DNA of 64,000 nucleotides from Diphasiastrum complanatum (lineage: Eukaryota; Streptophyta; Lycopodiopsida; Lycopodiales; Lycopodiaceae), in the NCBI GenBank assembly GCA_029204225.1, contig CM055092.1:24057005-24121004 (forward strand), written 5' to 3'. Both the position numbers and the translations under genes were made by a program. The notes beneath the pieces are model-generated. The model had not been told where the DNA came from. It ran no database searches and saw only the letters and a program-made list of their open reading frames with translations. Shown piece after piece: positions 43,201 to 46,021 of this stretch. How positions within the stretch are numbered: the stretch's first letter is position 1; every line of letters starts with the position of its first letter.

Positions 43201-46021
43201 GTTCCTGAACCAGGTTTCCTTTCATGAATAAGAACAAGATTATCATCAGAACCAGACGCTATAAATCGTCCTGACTTAGCCCACCGAACACAATTGACTG
43301 AACCAAAATGATCTCGAAGAGTGGCAAGCAACTTTGGAGATGTGAAGTCCACATCAGATTCTCTAGCAGATAGTGGCTTCATATTCCATATTCGTACCTG
43401 CAATAAACTATTTGGCTTCAGATTGATATATACCATTCACCTAAGCAGTATCAGCCACAGCAATTGTAAGCACATTCTAGAAGGAAATAACACATCTGTG
43501 GTTTCCAGAAACCACAGATGGAGGTTGGCTAGAAGTAGTAACAACAAGGACTTCTTAAGGAAGAAAGGAGACAGTCCTCTGGTAACTACAGAACTACATA
43601 TCCATAAACACCAATATCATCATGAGCAGAATTAAGTACAGAAATTTCTGTAATTGAAATATGAACCAACTGTTTTTCAAATTGCAATGGACATCAATCT
43701 CTAACATTACAGTTCAAATGATGCAAAAGGTATCCCCACTTTATTTAAATAATAAAAAAATCTGTTGTGCATCACAATTAGTAACAATCACATAGACAAT
43801 AATTTGAGCATGTCAAGTGAGCTTAGAAACACCAAGAAGCGTAAATTTCACACTTACTACTTGCATTGTTCTTGTCGTTTATTTATTTTTTCATTTTGTG
43901 CCATAAACTTGAGTATCCTGGGTAGACTATGAAGCAATACTGGGTCCTTTCTAGGCCCAGTAGATAACATTTCTTATTTTGTAAACTTCTGTACTTTTGC
44001 AACTCATTTTTGCCATATTACAGCAATAACTGTTAGAAATCCATAAATCATAATATGGATGGACAGACTAGGATTCGAACCCAGGACCTCCCTCATACCG
44101 GATGGGATGCTCTACCACTGAGCTATCCGCCATGTTTGATAGTTCTCTCTAGAGTGTGGATTGATATTCCAACACCCCCCCTCAAGCCACACTTGGTTGG
44201 GGTCCTAGCTGTCACCTGCCCCACAACTTGGGCCACCTGATCATGGCTTTGACACCATGAAATGTTAGGTCTAATTTGGCTCTGATACCATGTTAGAAAT
44301 CCATAAATCATAATATGGATGGACAGACTAGGATTCGAACCCAAGACCTCCCTCATACCGGATGGGATGCTCTACCACTGAGCTATCCGCCCTGTTTGAT
44401 AGTTCTCTCTAGAGTGTGGATTGATATTCCAACAATAACTATCACGCTAGATTGCCTCAAGAAACTGGTGACACCGACAAACGCAAATTGAGATTATAAA
44501 ATGACGTGCAACACCCGAATCCTCCATGAATGACATTAGGAGACTAAAAGCATTGCAGTCCTTCTATGAAGGAACTCATATACCTTCAACATACATAAGC
44601 CATGAAATAAAGGCTATTGTTAATAACCTCTCATGCCATCAGAACAGAAAAAACCAGTTCAAATAATTCACGTGAATGGGAGTACATCTTCAATGAGAAA
44701 TCATACAACAAAACAAAGTACGTCCAATTTCACTAGAAAATATATTGAGCAACAGGGAGAAATCAAAAACATGTGCATCAATTATGTTTCAAACTTCTGT
44801 CCAGAAATTAGATAAAAAAGGCCCTTTTCAGCAAATATTTCTTCCCAAAATGTTCTTATTGTCAATTTGTGAAGTTTCACATGATAGCCATATTAAACAT
44901 GTAGCTAAGCATATTAAAATGCTTCACCTGATGCAATCTAGACTCACTAAACATTATTAGATGATGGATAAAATTTGGTATTGTTCCCCCATTAAACTGT
45001 CTTAGTGAAACTCTTGGACTGACAAGTACAGGGCTAATCGATAGGTGACATATTGAGGCCCATGGATTGTTCAAGGTTCTAATTGACTTCAACGATTGCT
45101 TTTTAAGGCTCGGAAGCGGAAGGATAAACATCGAAAACTTTTAATCCTCAAGTCCACGTAATTTGCCTTCTGGATGTGCTAAAGAGGAGTGATAGAGGAC
45201 CCGAATGGCAGAAGGGCAAATTTGTTTAGGTAAAACTGTGACCCGGGTTCCCATTCAAAGTCTTACTCTAGAATGAATGTTAACCGTCAAATGTCACTTT
45301 TTTTCGAGTAATAACTTTTAGACCTTGCAATCTCATGTTACACAAGCGTTTGAGCAATGTTGCTATTTCTCTGTAATAGGCAGCTGCTGAAATTCACATA
45401 ATACGAAGTTCTCAACAATTATAGAAAAATTGCTTCGTCACAGCGCGAAAATACAAAAAATAACCAAACTATCAAGGCAGAAGACTGCTTCCTCAAAAAG
45501 GTGAAGCCCTAACCCCAAGCGCCAAAGCATAATGAAAGCATAAGAAAGTATCCAGTTACATGTTACATGATAGAAAAATTGCTGATTTCAAACTAAGTAT
45601 TTGAAGAAAAAACAATGTAAACAAAGGTCAAATATATGTAACTTTGTAGAACCTAGCGTGCACATGTAAAAGCTCATTCATTAGCATAACTACGAATATT
45701 CTTTATACAATTTTCAAAAATCTCAAATTGAAGGTTATTGTACGGCATCTTCATTTCTTGTTGAACCACCAAAAAGCCTATGAATAACACTATTCCATAA
45801 TAGGTAAAAGTATTCAGATTTCTAGACACAACTATCTCGCTCTACAGACAATCTCTAATCATTGATTCAAACCCACATAAAAGGCTAGACAGCCAAAGAA
45901 TGCCCGTGATTACCTTGTGATCTCCACCAGCTGTGGCAAGTCTAAGTCCGCTTGACTGAATATCGAGCGAAAATATTTGGAGGCCCCCGTGACGGAGCCA
46001 TGGAGGCTTCTCCACAATCAT
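4147..46021 (-). CDS. HIRA: HIRA histone chaperone, complete 10-exon gene (983 aa)
   Basis: HIRA deposits histone H3.3-H4 outside S phase, with ubinuclein, CABIN1-type and ASF1 partners, in the nucleus. Exons on the minus strand are 45914-46021, 43119-43397, 42730-42981, 42176-42597, 33218-34268, 31611-31821, 31233-31464, 28377-28502, 4535-4652 and 4147-4299. All introns are GT-AG and the 2952 nt keep one open frame, close to the family's usual length. Residues 1-400 form a WD40 propeller (for example VRIWNM, VRIWRT, VVIWQT, ITVWTT). A basic motif at about 481-498 ([15 protein letters not shown]) matches the HIRA B domain that contacts ASF1. Residues from about 660 to the end match the HIRA C-terminal domain, ending with GMKKHDLLR and [14 protein letters not shown]. 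The ATG was chosen because the next residues ([19 protein letters not shown]) match the family N terminus. Oddity: 41.9 kb long because introns 1, 4 and 8 are filled with transposons. Exon assignments rest on homology and splice signals, not on transcripts. Confidence 0.95.
4535..4652 (-). CDS. HIRA: HIRA exon 9 (residues 894-933)
   Basis: Acceptor TTTGCAG, donor GTACGT. It encodes [18 protein letters not shown], which follows directly on exon 8 (TRFLTR) in known HIRA proteins. The phase (one base completing Arg, then 39 codons) fits exactly. This match shows that 4653-28376 is a single intron. Confidence 0.9.
5170..5460. repeat. A/T-and-CG motif cluster followed by degenerate GGTT-rich minisatellite
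   Basis: 5178-5236 repeats short motifs of the type GCAAATTGC and CGCAAATCG in both orientations. 5325-5455 is a decayed tandem array of about 10-12 bp units around TATGGTTTGG. Both look like subterminal repeats of a small DNA transposon, but no terminal inverted repeats are evident. Confidence 0.4.
5483..6850 (-). pseudogene. Copia A: gag to protease fragment with in-frame stop
   Basis: Minus-strand Ty1/copia gag (UBN2-type, starting near [16 protein letters not shown]) reaches a TGA at 6485-6487, then continues in the same frame from 6472. Downstream come a lysine-rich linker, a CCHC zinc knuckle ([14 protein letters not shown]), and the copia protease site [12 protein letters not shown]. 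The frame ends at 5483; integrase, reverse transcriptase and RNase H are absent. A single C-to-T change explains the stop. It is a 5' fragment, not a functional element. Confidence 0.85.
6851..7855 (-). mobile_element. Probable 5' LTR and leader of copia A
   Basis: On the minus strand the sequence from 7855 opens TGTTAGAAATAAATGAC, a typical copia LTR start, and leads into the gag of copia A. It contains three copies of a GGGCGCC-centred motif (7220-7340). No matching 3' LTR or primer-binding site was found, so the limits are tentative. Confidence 0.35.
7862..8468 (-). mobile_element. 3' LTR of chromovirus Ty3-1 (outer end approximate)
   Basis: Starts TGTTAGGAACC at 8468 (minus), immediately after a polypurine tract (AAGGGGGAAAGAA, 8470-8482), as a 3' LTR should. 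A TATA-like CTATAATAGGG lies near 8175. The far end near 7862 is inferred; the 5' partner LTR is not recognisable. Confidence 0.5.
9448..9535 (+). mobile_element. tRNA-derived SINE-like insertion, 88 bp
   Basis: Flanked by a perfect 14-bp target duplication CATTCTAGGTAATG (9434-9447 and 9536-9549). It carries an RNA polymerase III box A (TGGCTCAACTGG, 9462-9473) and box B (GGTTCGAACCT, 9506-9516) on the plus strand, and ends with a small hairpin CTTGGAAACCAAG (9520-9532). A poly(A) or poly(T) tail is not evident. It interrupts the reverse transcriptase of Ty3-1 between PLPRM and DDLIDRL. Insert plus duplication is 102 bp, so it adds 34 codons without a stop. It could be a short SINE or a retro-inserted tRNA fragment. 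Confidence 0.82.
9890..10470 (-). mobile_element. Probable solo-LTR-like insertion between protease and RT of Ty3-1
   Basis: This block has no counterpart between protease and reverse transcriptase in this family. On the minus strand it has a TATA-like TATAAGTAGGG (about 10095) and CT-rich leader-like sequence with a 30-bp tandem duplication (9950-10010, motif AAGCTATGAAAGCA). Composition suggests an LTR, but target duplications and TG/CA ends were not resolved. Confidence 0.4.
12035..12150. repeat. Cluster of CATGCA motifs
   Basis: About ten copies of ACATGCA or close variants (CATGCAACC, CATGCAGTCC) within 115 bp. CATGCA is the plant RY motif core, but inside an intron and next to transposon ends it is more likely part of a decayed element than a working enhancer. 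Confidence 0.4.
12350..12450. mobile_element. Left end of hAT element: palindromic GGTTCGAACC subterminal repeats
   Basis: A near-perfect 24-bp palindrome centred on GGTTCGAACCGGCCGG (12379-12402) is followed by more GGTTCGAA and GGTTTGAACC copies. Clustered short palindromes near a terminus are typical of hAT transposons. The outer tip may be CAAGGTTGCATCCCG near 12351; its inverted partner was not found at the other side. Confidence 0.5.
12680..12752. repeat. Two-copy tandem repeat, about 38 bp
   Basis: The block GACTACATAGTACATACTAC followed by AGTTAAAACTT occurs twice in direct tandem with one or two changes. It lies within the hAT element 3' region. Confidence 0.7.
13522..13879 (+). mobile_element. 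Ty3-2 5' LTR (358 bp)
   Basis: Begins TGTTACGAGCTCG and ends ATCTATTACA. A TATA-like CTATATC at 13807-13813 is the probable promoter core. This full-length LTR contains 123 bp (13735-13857) that the 3' copy lacks. Confidence 0.93.
13881..13893 (+). other. Ty3-2 primer-binding site, initiator Met-tRNA
   Basis: TGGTATCAGAGCC, one base after the 5' LTR, complementary to the 3' end of plant initiator Met-tRNA. It starts minus-strand DNA synthesis. Confidence 0.93.
13894..14865 (+). other. Ty3-2 untranslated leader
   Basis: About 970 bp between primer site and gag. It has recurring short blocks (AGGTCCAGCGCTGA, GACAGCGAGGG) but no supported coding frame; a 90-codon frame at 14408 resembles nothing known. 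Confidence 0.6.
14866..15363 (+). CDS. Ty3-2 gag N-terminal part, cut by frameshift
   Basis: 165 codons starting [15 protein letters not shown]. An acidic, coiled-coil-like stretch (about residues 30-90) is followed by [19 protein letters not shown], the standard entrance to a Retrotrans_gag domain. After LQTFLNK the frame becomes nonsense, while sense continues in another frame ([16 protein letters not shown]). The lesion therefore lies at about 15298-15306 and is most simply a one-base loss. It is inside gag, not at the gag-pol border, so a mutation or sequencing error is more likely than programmed frameshifting. Confidence 0.85.
15333..19637 (+). CDS. Ty3-2 gag-pol polyprotein with chromodomain
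   Basis: 1434-codon frame, opened by the frameshift rather than by a natural ATG. Order with rough residues: rest of gag (1-130), CCHC knuckle [14 protein letters not shown] (187-200), aspartic protease [11 protein letters not shown] (277), reverse transcriptase 440-640 with [10 protein letters not shown] and FLDDILVYS (623), RNase H with [13 protein letters not shown] and TDHESL (about 770-860), and integrase. The integrase has HHCC zinc region (about 1012-1055) and DDE residues in [17 protein letters not shown] and QTERVNQ (about 1083, 1143, 1179). It ends with a C-terminal chromodomain with [17 protein letters not shown] (about 1395-1411). The distal RNase H ([18 protein letters not shown]) looks a few residues shorter than relatives. 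Chromodomains target integration to particular chromatin. Confidence 0.93.
19636..19648 (+). other. Ty3-2 polypurine tract
   Basis: AAGGGGGAGGGAG directly before the 3' LTR and overlapping the end of the pol stop codon region. It primes plus-strand synthesis. Confidence 0.88.
19649..19883 (+). mobile_element. Ty3-2 3' LTR with 123-bp internal deletion
   Basis: 235 bp. Identical layout to the 5' LTR until GGCCAC, then joins directly to TGTGGTGTTAGG. The missing part corresponds to 13735-13857 and includes the TATA-like sequence. The junction has a 2-bp AC microhomology. Confidence 0.92.
22266..22830. repeat. Two direct repeats of about 207 bp spaced 355 bp
   Basis: 22266-22473 and 22621-22828 share TCCCCTATCCTTGTC, GTGATGCGGTTGGTTG and a closing CTTTAAAATCTTTGGACAT with only scattered differences. 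Between them is unrelated sequence (22474-22620). They could be a duplication, or LTRs of a tiny element, but no TG/CA ends or primer site are visible. Confidence 0.75.
22975..23067 (+). repeat. (CT)n microsatellite, about 93 bp
   Basis: Almost uninterrupted CT. On the minus strand it is (GA)n lying exactly after the end of copia B RNase H, where that element's polypurine tract would be expected. Confidence 0.98.
23068..27090 (-). pseudogene. Copia B: Ty1/copia gag-pol with several lesions
   Basis: Reads from 27090 leftward. Gag ([20 protein letters not shown]) has a TAG at 26638-26640 in place of a sense codon. A frameshift near 26450 precedes the CCHC knuckle [14 protein letters not shown]. 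Then come the protease [16 protein letters not shown]-preintegrase [10 protein letters not shown], and integrase ([26 protein letters not shown]) breaking near 25105. The RT linker follows (25021-24428), and RT resumes with [18 protein letters not shown] after a deletion of the [10 protein letters not shown] part. There is another frameshift near 24120-24200, then [10 protein letters not shown] (about 24040), and an intact RNase H ([18 protein letters not shown]) to about 23090. LTRs were not identified. Confidence 0.9.
27408..28141. repeat. Tandem duplication, 2 x 367 bp
   Basis: 27408-27774 and 27775-28141 are head-to-tail copies, both starting AACCAACTAATAGTC and ending AGCAATGCAAG. They differ at about fifteen scattered positions. 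A minus-strand reading of copy 2 (28174-27959) has no recognised domain. Confidence 0.9.
28377..28502 (-). CDS. HIRA: HIRA exon 8 (residues 852-894)
   Basis: 126 nt coding [20 protein letters not shown] and [14 protein letters not shown]. Acceptor ATGTTAG, donor AAG|GTCAAC. The next exon lies 23.7 kb downstream. Confidence 0.9.
28503..31232 (-). other. HIRA intron 7, no element recognised
   Basis: 2.7 kb of AT-rich sequence between exons 7 and 8. Short frames at 29023-29332 and 30481-30732 match no family I know. No terminal repeats were seen. Confidence 0.6.
31233..31464 (-). CDS. HIRA: HIRA exon 7 (residues 775-852)
   Basis: Acceptor TTTTACAG, donor GTGAGC. It encodes [20 protein letters not shown] and [16 protein letters not shown], a signature of the HIRA C-terminal domain. 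It ends with two bases of an Arg codon completed by exon 8. Confidence 0.9.
31611..31821 (-). CDS. HIRA: HIRA exon 6 (residues 705-775)
   Basis: Begins [18 protein letters not shown] after acceptor CATAG and ends after ...MVEYN plus one base at donor GTAGGG. That donor was picked because it is the one that restores phase with exon 7. An alternative donor a few bases away would break the frame. Confidence 0.85.
31822..33217 (-). other. HIRA intron 5, with a small decayed DNA-element-like patch
   Basis: 1.4 kb. At 32745-32815 inverted short motifs (GTTCTGAACTA and GTTCAGAACTG) cluster, as in hAT-like miniature elements. The rest shows nothing specific. Confidence 0.45.
33218..34268 (-). CDS. 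HIRA: HIRA exon 5, linker with B motif (residues 355-704)
   Basis: 1051 nt. Opens with [16 protein letters not shown] (last WD40 blade), runs through a low-complexity linker containing the ASF1-contact B motif, and enters the HIRA domain at EVGEKRR to [12 protein letters not shown]. Acceptor TTTCGCAG, donor GTGCTT. No stop or frameshift. Confidence 0.94.
34269..35600 (-). other. HIRA intron 4, proximal part without recognised element
   Basis: 1.3 kb with no coding match. 34985-35130 is rich in TTCGAC motifs (direct and inverted), which may be the edge of a decayed LTR belonging to copia C just to the right. Confidence 0.4.
35640..39110 (+). pseudogene. Copia C: decayed Ty1/copia element, antisense to HIRA
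   Basis: Plus-strand pieces in order: gag UBN2 ([20 protein letters not shown], 35649 onward), a zinc-knuckle remnant [13 protein letters not shown] (about 36090), and a foreign block of about 1 kb. Next are a corrupted protease ([12 protein letters not shown], about 37235), GAG-preintegrase and integrase ([21 protein letters not shown], 37597-38085), and the integrase C part (38082-38285). RT ([19 protein letters not shown], about 38800) stops after QAPRAWF near 39100. Many stops and frameshifts show this is older than copia B. YVDD, RNase H and both LTRs are missing. Confidence 0.85.
36150..37140 (-). mobile_element. Foreign 1-kb block in copia C, LTR-like, with about 100-bp tandem repeats
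   Basis: Separates the gag knuckle from the protease of copia C. On the minus strand it opens TGTAACTAGCAGTAC near 37136. At 36870-37085 two degenerate units of about 100 bp each contain self-complementary CCCTTAATCCTAAGGG. Probably a solo LTR; ends not proven. Confidence 0.4.
39590..39740. repeat. CGCAATTCGC motif cluster
   Basis: Direct and inverted copies of AATCGCAATTCGCAATT-type motifs flank a GGGGGGTCGC core. It resembles the cluster at 5178-5236, suggesting ends of a related miniature DNA transposon family in introns 4 and 8. Confidence 0.4.
40523..40730. mobile_element. GC-rich foldback element, about 95-bp inverted arms
   Basis: The left arm (40523-40623) and the reverse complement of the right arm (about 40637-40730) match at roughly 80-85 percent, with outer ends GGACGCGTCCGACCCCGCGT identical. 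A short AT loop separates them. More copies of GGACGCGTCC and GTCGGACGCG continue to 40985 among poly(A)/poly(T) tracts. Probably a MITE with subterminal repeats; the open frames across it are composition artefacts. Confidence 0.75.
40990..42175. other. Distal HIRA intron 4, nothing recognised
   Basis: AT-rich sequence up to the exon 4 donor. Short frames only. 41030-41290 has a lysine-rich plus-strand reading broken by several stops that I cannot place. Confidence 0.5.
42176..42597 (-). CDS. HIRA: HIRA exon 4 (residues 214-354)
   Basis: 422 nt coding the conserved [13 protein letters not shown] block and WD40 repeat [12 protein letters not shown]. It ends inside a Trp codon (TG|G) at donor GTAAGT; exon 5 supplies the last G, 7.9 kb away. 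Confidence 0.94.
42730..42981 (-). CDS. HIRA: HIRA exon 3 (residues 130-213)
   Basis: 84 codons with WD40 repeats ([20 protein letters not shown], then [14 protein letters not shown]). Acceptor GAAGTAG, donor GTAAAG, phase 0. Intron 2 is 137 bp and intron 3 is 132 bp, ordinary plant sizes. Confidence 0.94.
43119..43397 (-). CDS. HIRA: HIRA exon 2 (residues 37-129)
   Basis: 93 codons between acceptor TTGCAG and donor GTAAAA, phase 0 at both ends. It begins VRIWNMKPL and contains the WD40 stretch [20 protein letters not shown]. It ends LRGHSADV, directly continued by exon 3. Confidence 0.94.
44060..44132 (-). other. tRNA-like sequence in 3' LTR of the TRIM
   Basis: Second copy of the same 73-nt unit; box A 44125-44115, box B 44081-44071. 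It differs from the other copy at acceptor position 1 (T, unpaired with C72) and T-stem position 49 (C, restoring a Watson-Crick pair). These are the only two LTR differences. Confidence 0.85.
44320..44392 (-). other. tRNA-like sequence in 5' LTR of the TRIM
   Basis: 73 nt with box A TAGCTCAGTGG (44385-44375) and box B GGTTCGAATCC (44341-44331). Acceptor arms GGGCGGA and TCTGTCC pair over 7 positions with two G-U pairs. D arm GCTC/GAGC is perfect, and the T arm TTGGG/CCTAG pairs around loop TTCGAAT. The anticodon arm is one base too long and poorly paired, so a working tRNA is unlikely. Overall it most resembles plant tRNA-Cys, especially around TAGCTCAGTGGTAGAGCAT. Confidence 0.85.
44435..45913 (-). 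other. Proximal HIRA intron 1, nothing recognised
   Basis: AT-rich, no coding match and no repeats seen. Confidence 0.5.
45914..46021 (-). CDS. HIRA: HIRA exon 1 (residues 1-36)
   Basis: Starts at the ATG whose complement is 46019-46021 and ends AAG before the donor GTAATC, phase 0. It encodes the conserved HIRA start ending ATAGGDHK, the first WD40 strand. No long open frame marks it; it was found by matching the family N terminus. Confidence 0.92.

Follow-up and report, generated by a model that had tools for sequence, protein, structure and literature searches.

Helenus elements, described by Kojima (2024, Biology 13:119; PMC10886601), are terminal-repeat retrotransposons in miniature (TRIMs) that carry tRNA-derived sequence in their long terminal repeats (LTRs) and that have been reported from fungi, animals, and one plant. 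They measure 311 to 1263 bp in total, contain a box A with TRGCY and YGG and a box B with GGTTC, and in some families inflate tRNA counts; an RNA polymerase III (pol III) promoter role has been proposed for them, without experimental proof (PMC10886601). The sole plant member in that survey comes from Selaginella moellendorffii and has a 120-bp LTR, an 85-bp internal region, and 5-bp duplications of the target site. Here, we describe a Helenus-type TRIM in a 64,000-nucleotide stretch of the lycophyte Diphasiastrum complanatum (GCA_029204225.1, contig CM055092.1, positions 24,057,005 to 24,121,004; hereafter, the window), together with the family to which it belongs, called A, and a second family, B, of the same genome. 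The tRNA-like unit within each LTR is referred to as the cassette.

Families A and B resemble Helenus elements in their length below 1.3 kb (404 bp in A and mostly 378 to 379 bp in B), in boxes A and B within a tRNA-derived part present in both LTRs, in their primer site and polypurine tract, and in the tRNA-finder matches inside the LTRs. They also share the 5-bp duplications of the plant and fungal Helenus members, and the occurrence of several families in one genome is possible for Helenus as well. As all Helenus features that could be tested are present, we file both families as Helenus-type, and the idea of such an element is not new. As to whether the family had already been described, the kind is known as Helenus (PMC10886601), and families A and B differ from the Selaginella element in LTR and internal lengths (144 and 116 bp in A, ~150 to 153 and 73 bp in B). 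What is new here is a further plant genome with Helenus, which extends these elements in plants beyond S. moellendorffii, their high copy number, and the existence of two families sharing essentially only the cassette. No report of Helenus in a flowering plant was found among the papers listed in the literature searched, subscription journals and Repbase being outside its scope.

The preliminary description of the window likened the element to Cassandra, and the parallel stands, in that we see a TRIM with a tRNA-like unit in both LTRs. According to PMC7215508 and PMC10853983, Cassandra has, as here, an LTR cassette derived from a pol III gene, the primer site TGGTATCAGAGC, and tandem LTR-internal-LTR arrays. 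The Cassandra cassette is 5S rRNA sequence, whereas those of families A and B are tRNA-like; an Rfam scan of window positions 43000 to 45500 (E up to 10) listed tRNA and no 5S rRNA. Cassandra transcripts arise from its pol III promoter (PMC10886601), whereas pol III use by families A and B is something that we infer. Ajax TRIMs of nemerteans also have small-RNA-gene sequence in their LTRs, but this is 5S derived, and the elements are animal ones with a tRNA-Leu primer site (PMC10886601). The main text of Gao et al. (2016; PMC4717578) does not contain the term tRNA and states that no other TRIM family had 5S rRNA. Finally, short interspersed nuclear elements (SINEs) of the tRNA-derived type begin with a tRNA-related head in which boxes A and B are found, as they are here, and are a possible source of the cassette. 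They have no LTRs, primer site, or polypurine tract. Their mobilization depends on non-LTR retrotransposons (PMC10886601).

A TRIM with a tRNA-like unit in each LTR

The TRIM in the window is complete and, like its tRNA-like units, reads on the minus strand, so that its 5′ LTR has the higher coordinates (Table 1). The 404-bp length, the 144-bp LTRs with two differences, the ATAAC target duplication, the primer site, and the polypurine tract that had been described for it are all present, and its bounds were correct. The LTRs are direct repeats, 99% identical, with mismatches at LTR positions 43 and 91 (element sense). Directly adjoining the 5′ LTR is the primer site TGGTATCAGAGCC, the primer tRNA of which we take to be initiator Met tRNA, and the G-rich polypurine tract TTGAGGGGGGG directly adjoins the 3′ LTR. 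No coding capacity was seen in the element, as judged by its length and by the lack of any listed open frame of at least 110 amino acids.

The 73-nt tRNA-like stretch claimed for each LTR was recovered by the tRNA covariance model. Rfam RF00005 scored the two units at 46.6 and 40.9 bits (E values of 3.4e-08 and 1.2e-06), above the gathering score of 29, and ARAGORN identified both as tRNA-Thr (GGT) while finding no further tRNA anywhere in the 64-kb window. On dinucleotide-shuffled family A LTRs, ARAGORN reported a tRNA in 0 of 2,000, which makes chance an unlikely cause. It is this covariance model, and not folding energy, that constitutes the evidence for tRNA likeness. Boxes A and B are present as first described. 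The 7-bp acceptor stem needs amendment, as the first pair of the 3′ LTR unit is a U-C mismatch.

Family A across the genome

When the assembly (1.74 Gb in 5,176 contigs) was searched with the window TRIM, 45 of the 50 matches listed were 94 to 100% identical to it, the best 40 of 1,245 candidates having been scored. The outermost ends bore an exact 5-bp duplication in 34 of 40 fetched family A loci, and tandem LTR-internal arrays were present as well (L014, L030, and L037). Pooling all loci, we found exact 5-bp duplications around 41 of 50 end-complete chains, defined as chains in which both outer ends were reached, with overlapping fetches removed and segmental duplicates kept. Among the other nine, seven had duplications with one base different and two (identical flanks seen twice) were shifted by one base. 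Some of the 41 duplications are probably segmental copies of one insertion, because the loci within each of the pairs L031/L032, L017/L035, and L003/L016 share their duplications; L026/L027 are perhaps also segmental duplicates of one insertion. The mean difference between paired LTRs was 1.64% in 38 best-match copies versus 4.3% in 14 copies from the chromosome-C1 listing, indicating that the activity of family A extended over a period and that only part of its copies are recent.

Pattern searches bore on both the number of copies and the constancy of the cassette. Exact U3 and tail flanks enclosed 60 to 90 nt at 1,006 places, with 0 for a reversed-pattern control, and 0 to 30 nt at only three; these two ranges were the gap sizes covered. 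Each of the three short-gap LTRs retains pieces of the tRNA-like unit, and we therefore regard them as deletions. The copies with flanking duplications that the preliminary description called for are thus abundant (1,006 LTRs by pattern; 41 of 50 chains with exact duplications), and, at the gap sizes covered, there are hardly any LTRs without the tRNA-like part (1,006 versus 3, all 3 being deletions). A pattern running from box A to the primer site gave 582 junctions (0 for the reversed pattern); those listed, all on contigs C1 to C3, resemble families A and B by eye. Overall, this genome contains at least several hundred Helenus-type copies in two families.

A tRNA was called by ARAGORN in 113 of 118 family A LTRs, with 99 of the calls being Thr-GGT, and the number of tRNA genes counted in genomes of this sort may be too high as a result, mostly through "tRNA-Thr GGT." An RF00005 search of the genome gave 84,948 tRNA candidates at first look, of which 63 were scored; copies of TRIMs and SINEs may account for this very high total.

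There were 15 matches with the same primer site and a different LTR end; by eye, 14 of these are derivatives of A or B, and one (C1:16875417) looks unrelated. Across 267 kb of fetched loci, no further tRNA-like matches were found outside the A and B matches and the tRNA genes of L099 to L128. A pattern scan of IMG/VR with a 28-base piece of the cassette produced no matches.

A second family shares the cassette

Family B is represented by a second TRIM that adjoins a family A tandem array (L037:1131-1479, minus strand). It has the same primer site, TGGTATCAGAGCC, as family A, a polypurine tract of TTGAGGGGGAG, and, in its commonest forms, TAGCTCAGTGG as box A and GGTTCAATCCC as box B. The LTR-internal unit had at least 43 matches of 90 to 100% identity over at least 219 of 223 query bases (best 40 of 674 candidates scored). 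Exact duplications were found for 12 of 17 end-complete family B chains, with L044 and L045 sharing one. One of the remaining five has a single base different, and four have none (L058 and L059, whose flanks are the same; L060; and L066). The possibility that these four are array members was ruled out on checking. L060 (upstream) and L066 (downstream) border an identical other repeat at a TGGTATCATG/CATGATACCA site. Within family B, ARAGORN called a tRNA in 44 of 53 LTRs; 42 of these 44 have a two-base anticodon and no isotype.

To compare the families, we drew 200 pairs at random, using the LTRs whose cassette could be excised by script (111 of 118 in family A and 47 of 53 in family B). Cassettes were 79% identical between families (57% when shuffled). 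The corresponding values were 60% for U3 (shuffled, 52%), 53% for the LTR tail (shuffled, 52%), and 47% for the internal region minus the primer site (shuffled, 43%). Families A and B thus share essentially only the cassette, which suggests that a pol III-type cassette can outlast every other component of an LTR retrotransposon. We put forward, tentatively, the possibility of a Helenus lineage in which this cassette is the sole conserved module. Nearly all of the remaining LTR and internal region would have been replaced, and the tRNA fold would have relaxed, family B having no regular anticodon loop, with boxes A and B kept; the cassette would then be not a tRNA but a promoter module, either transferable between TRIMs or captured twice. 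The pair of families also offers a ready-made comparison for asking whether LTR elements are driven by pol III promoters.

Degenerate relatives of the family A cassette occur in other surroundings in L037, at ~1482 to 1575 (minus strand) and ~1724 to 1911 (plus strand). These are perhaps a third, older family.

Candidate promoter role of the cassette

The LTRs with their primer site and polypurine tract, the target duplications, the copy number, the cassette of both families, and the near absence of LTRs lacking it are all seen directly in the DNA. What we infer is that this Helenus-type TRIM is likely driven by pol III from its tRNA-derived cassette, primed by Met tRNA, and served in trans by Copia enzymes. 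Pol III would start at the 5′ end of the tRNA-like unit of the 5′ LTR or slightly upstream of it, with boxes A and B internal and CAA upstream, and the transcript would cover the primer site, the polypurine tract, and U3 before entering the 3′ LTR. R would begin near LTR position 43, since both LTRs would then hold transcribed repeat; the second copy of the start region, in the 3′ LTR, would thereby satisfy terminal redundancy. Initiator Met tRNA would serve, through its 3′ end, as the primer on this RNA, and copying and integration by the enzymes of an autonomous Copia element would generate the 5-bp duplications. These duplications and the Met-type primer site are compatible with Copia mobilization, though not diagnostic of it. 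As for an autonomous partner in the window, just one repeat pair apart from the element itself encloses a retroelement frame, and it belongs to a Gypsy-like element (type assigned by eye).

Boxes A and B stand at the positions that pol III requires. In plants, CAA marks pol III starts, and it is found a few bases upstream of the cassette as CTATCAAACA in family A (103 of 118 LTRs) and as GGAACACAAAT in family B (39 of 53). Use as a promoter, and not as a tRNA, is favored by the persistence of the promoter boxes and of the gross fold in the face of lost decoding features. A promoter role, as suggested in the preliminary description, is the best explanation for the cassette.

The fold was examined with a cloverleaf test on 12 sequences (6 from A, 5 from B, and 1 degenerate), mostly the commoner distinct forms. 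Standard pairs occupied 94.6% of cloverleaf cells, compared with 33 to 51% when partners were slid, and most family A rows have an acceptor, a D, and a T stem. Two pairs had changed on both sides, namely 7-66 (AU in A and GC in B) and 27-43 (CG, with UA in one degenerate copy). Among 500 pair shuffles, the observed percentage paired was reached in 6 and the observed two-sided cells in 0. The shuffle controls were mixed, as the figures below make clear.

Copy-to-copy variation gave different pictures in the two families. Change rates in the family A cassette (118 LTRs) were 36/707 at CG, 72/1178 at CHG, and 55/6713 at other sites. The CG and CHG excess in A and B LTRs is as expected from cytosine methylation and deamination. 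At sites other than CG and CHG in family B, the cassette changed less than its flanks (47/3309 versus 103/4128), with boundaries that are approximate and copies that are related by descent. Purifying selection on the family A cassette was looked for in the copy-to-copy variation, and none was seen. That the tRNA-like unit was kept while the element stayed mobile, as first proposed, is shown at the level of families only; among copies within family A, its variation exceeds that of the flanks, and this excess is confined to CG and CHG sites.

Only one of the 118 family A LTRs contains TTTT, compared with 44 of the 53 LTRs of family B. The absence of TTTT from family A was considered as a sign of pol III read-through and dropped: 67% of shuffled A units also have none, and nothing is drawn from family A in this regard.

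A number of observations weigh against the pol III model. Six of the 53 family B LTRs have no CAA and carry GGAACATAAAG instead, and the family B TTTT, where it stands in the 5′ LTR, would require read-through. The five family B rows of the cloverleaf test have nonstandard bases at acceptor pair 3 and at anticodon pair 26-44. Pair shuffles reached the observed two-sided pairs in 55 of 500, the covariation score in 40 of 500, and the pair types in 500 of 500. The folding energy of the 73-nt RNAs was no better than that of dinucleotide shuffles (z scores of +0.57 and -0.54). In 84 family A LTRs, 21 of the 73 cassette columns hold at least two variants as against 5 of the 71 in the flanks, making the cassette the more variable part, and at non-CG, non-CHG sites of family A the rates are alike (55/6713 in the cassette versus 52/8259 in the flanks).

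The unremarkable folding energy and the lack of constraint beyond that of the flanks among family A copies fit an alternative in which the cassette is a long-standing passenger that no longer acts as a promoter, such as a SINE head that entered an LTR a single time. Transcription would then be by RNA polymerase II from U3 or from neighboring genes, and the element would be moved in trans like any TRIM; the sense orientation of the window copy between exons of a HIRA-like gene also fits. We nevertheless consider this explanation unlikely. Families A and B have lost nearly all other similarity and yet keep a cassette with boxes A and B, cassette-free LTRs are essentially absent (1,006 versus 3), and U3 is only 42 nt long in A and mostly 53 nt in B.

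Much less probable still is a working or mimic tRNA (Thr-GGT), by which the element would spread tRNA genes or use the fold as a scaffold for priming or packaging. Although 99 of the 113 family A ARAGORN hits are Thr-GGT and the stems form in most family A rows, all but 2 of the 44 family B hits show no isotype and an "anticodon" of two bases, family B has a mismatch at acceptor pair 3, and the window copy lacks the first pair in its 3′ LTR unit. In addition, no complementarity between the tRNA-like parts and the primer sites of Helenus was reported by Kojima (PMC10886601). Across copies, the consistent isotype, 7-nt anticodon loop, and intact stems expected of a functional tRNA gene are not seen, given the missing isotype and irregular anticodon of family B and the partly broken stems, with family A alone being mostly Thr-GGT. 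The notion that a tRNA gene or SINE landed by chance in this one element can be dismissed, as the cassette is found in the LTRs of other copies and of family B too, and the 582 junctions and 1,006 LTRs with a tRNA-length insert rule out a chance or single-copy insertion.

Origin of the cassette

Capture from tRNA-Cys, raised in the preliminary description, could not be established. Family A matches plant tRNA-Cys in 52 of 74 aligned columns and host tRNA-Thr-GGT in 52 of 77, and family B matches them in 48 of 76 and 50 of 77, respectively, the tRNA-Cys in both comparisons being a plant sequence not taken from the host. Among 30 host tRNA loci (Thr, Ile, Lys, Asn, and Gln), Thr-GGT was nearest to both families. 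The source may be tRNA-Cys, tRNA-Thr, or a SINE intermediate.

Genomic setting of the window copy

The window TRIM sits in sense orientation between the first two recognized exons of a HIRA-like gene. This gene spans window positions 33197 to 46021 on the minus strand and has long introns. Its candidate exon 1 was located through an N-terminal motif of HIRA. The open frame of the next recognized exon scored 38.8 bits against the Pfam WD40 model, passing the cut-off of 27, and 55.7 bits against the CAF1B/HIR1 propeller, below the cut-off of 80.5.

Table 1. Coordinates of the TRIM, its parts, and the surrounding gene in the window
Feature	Position	Strand	Basis
Complete TRIM, family A, 404 bp, no coding capacity seen	44031..44434	-	Repeat structure and genome matches
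5′ LTR (element sense), 144 bp, TGTTGG...CTAACA	44291..44434	-	Direct repeat
3′ LTR (element sense), 144 bp, 2 differences from 5′ LTR	44031..44174	-	Direct repeat
Internal region, 116 bp	44175..44290	-	Between LTRs
Primer-binding site TGGTATCAGAGCC, initiator Met tRNA type	44278..44290	-	Sequence
Polypurine tract TTGAGGGGGGG	44175..44185	-	Sequence
tRNA-like unit, 5′ LTR, 73 nt	44320..44392	-	Rfam RF00005, 46.6 bits; ARAGORN tRNA-Thr GGT
tRNA-like unit, 3′ LTR, 73 nt	44060..44132	-	Rfam RF00005, 40.9 bits; ARAGORN tRNA-Thr GGT
Box A TAGCTCAGTGG	44375..44385 (5′ LTR); twin 44115..44125 (3′ LTR)	-	Fits Helenus box A motif (PMC10886601)
Box B GGTTCGAATCC	44331..44341 (5′ LTR); twin 44071..44081 (3′ LTR)	-	GGTTC as in Helenus (PMC10886601)
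CAA a few bases 5′ of tRNA-like start	44396..44398	-	Sequence
Target site duplication ATAAC, left	44026..44030	.	Sequence
Target site duplication ATAAC, right	44435..44439	.	Sequence
HIRA-like gene, from candidate exon 1 (start codon near 46021) to next recognized exon (open frame 43023..43436)	43023..46021	-	

Elsewhere in the window, the Gypsy-like element occupies positions 13522 to 19861 on the plus strand, with a frame of 1,434 amino acids and a terminal 213-bp repeat pair that is 98.6% identical, which suggests that it inserted fairly recently. Head-to-tail repeat pairs are found at positions 22266 to 22828 and 27408 to 28145, with spacings of ~357 and 367 bp.

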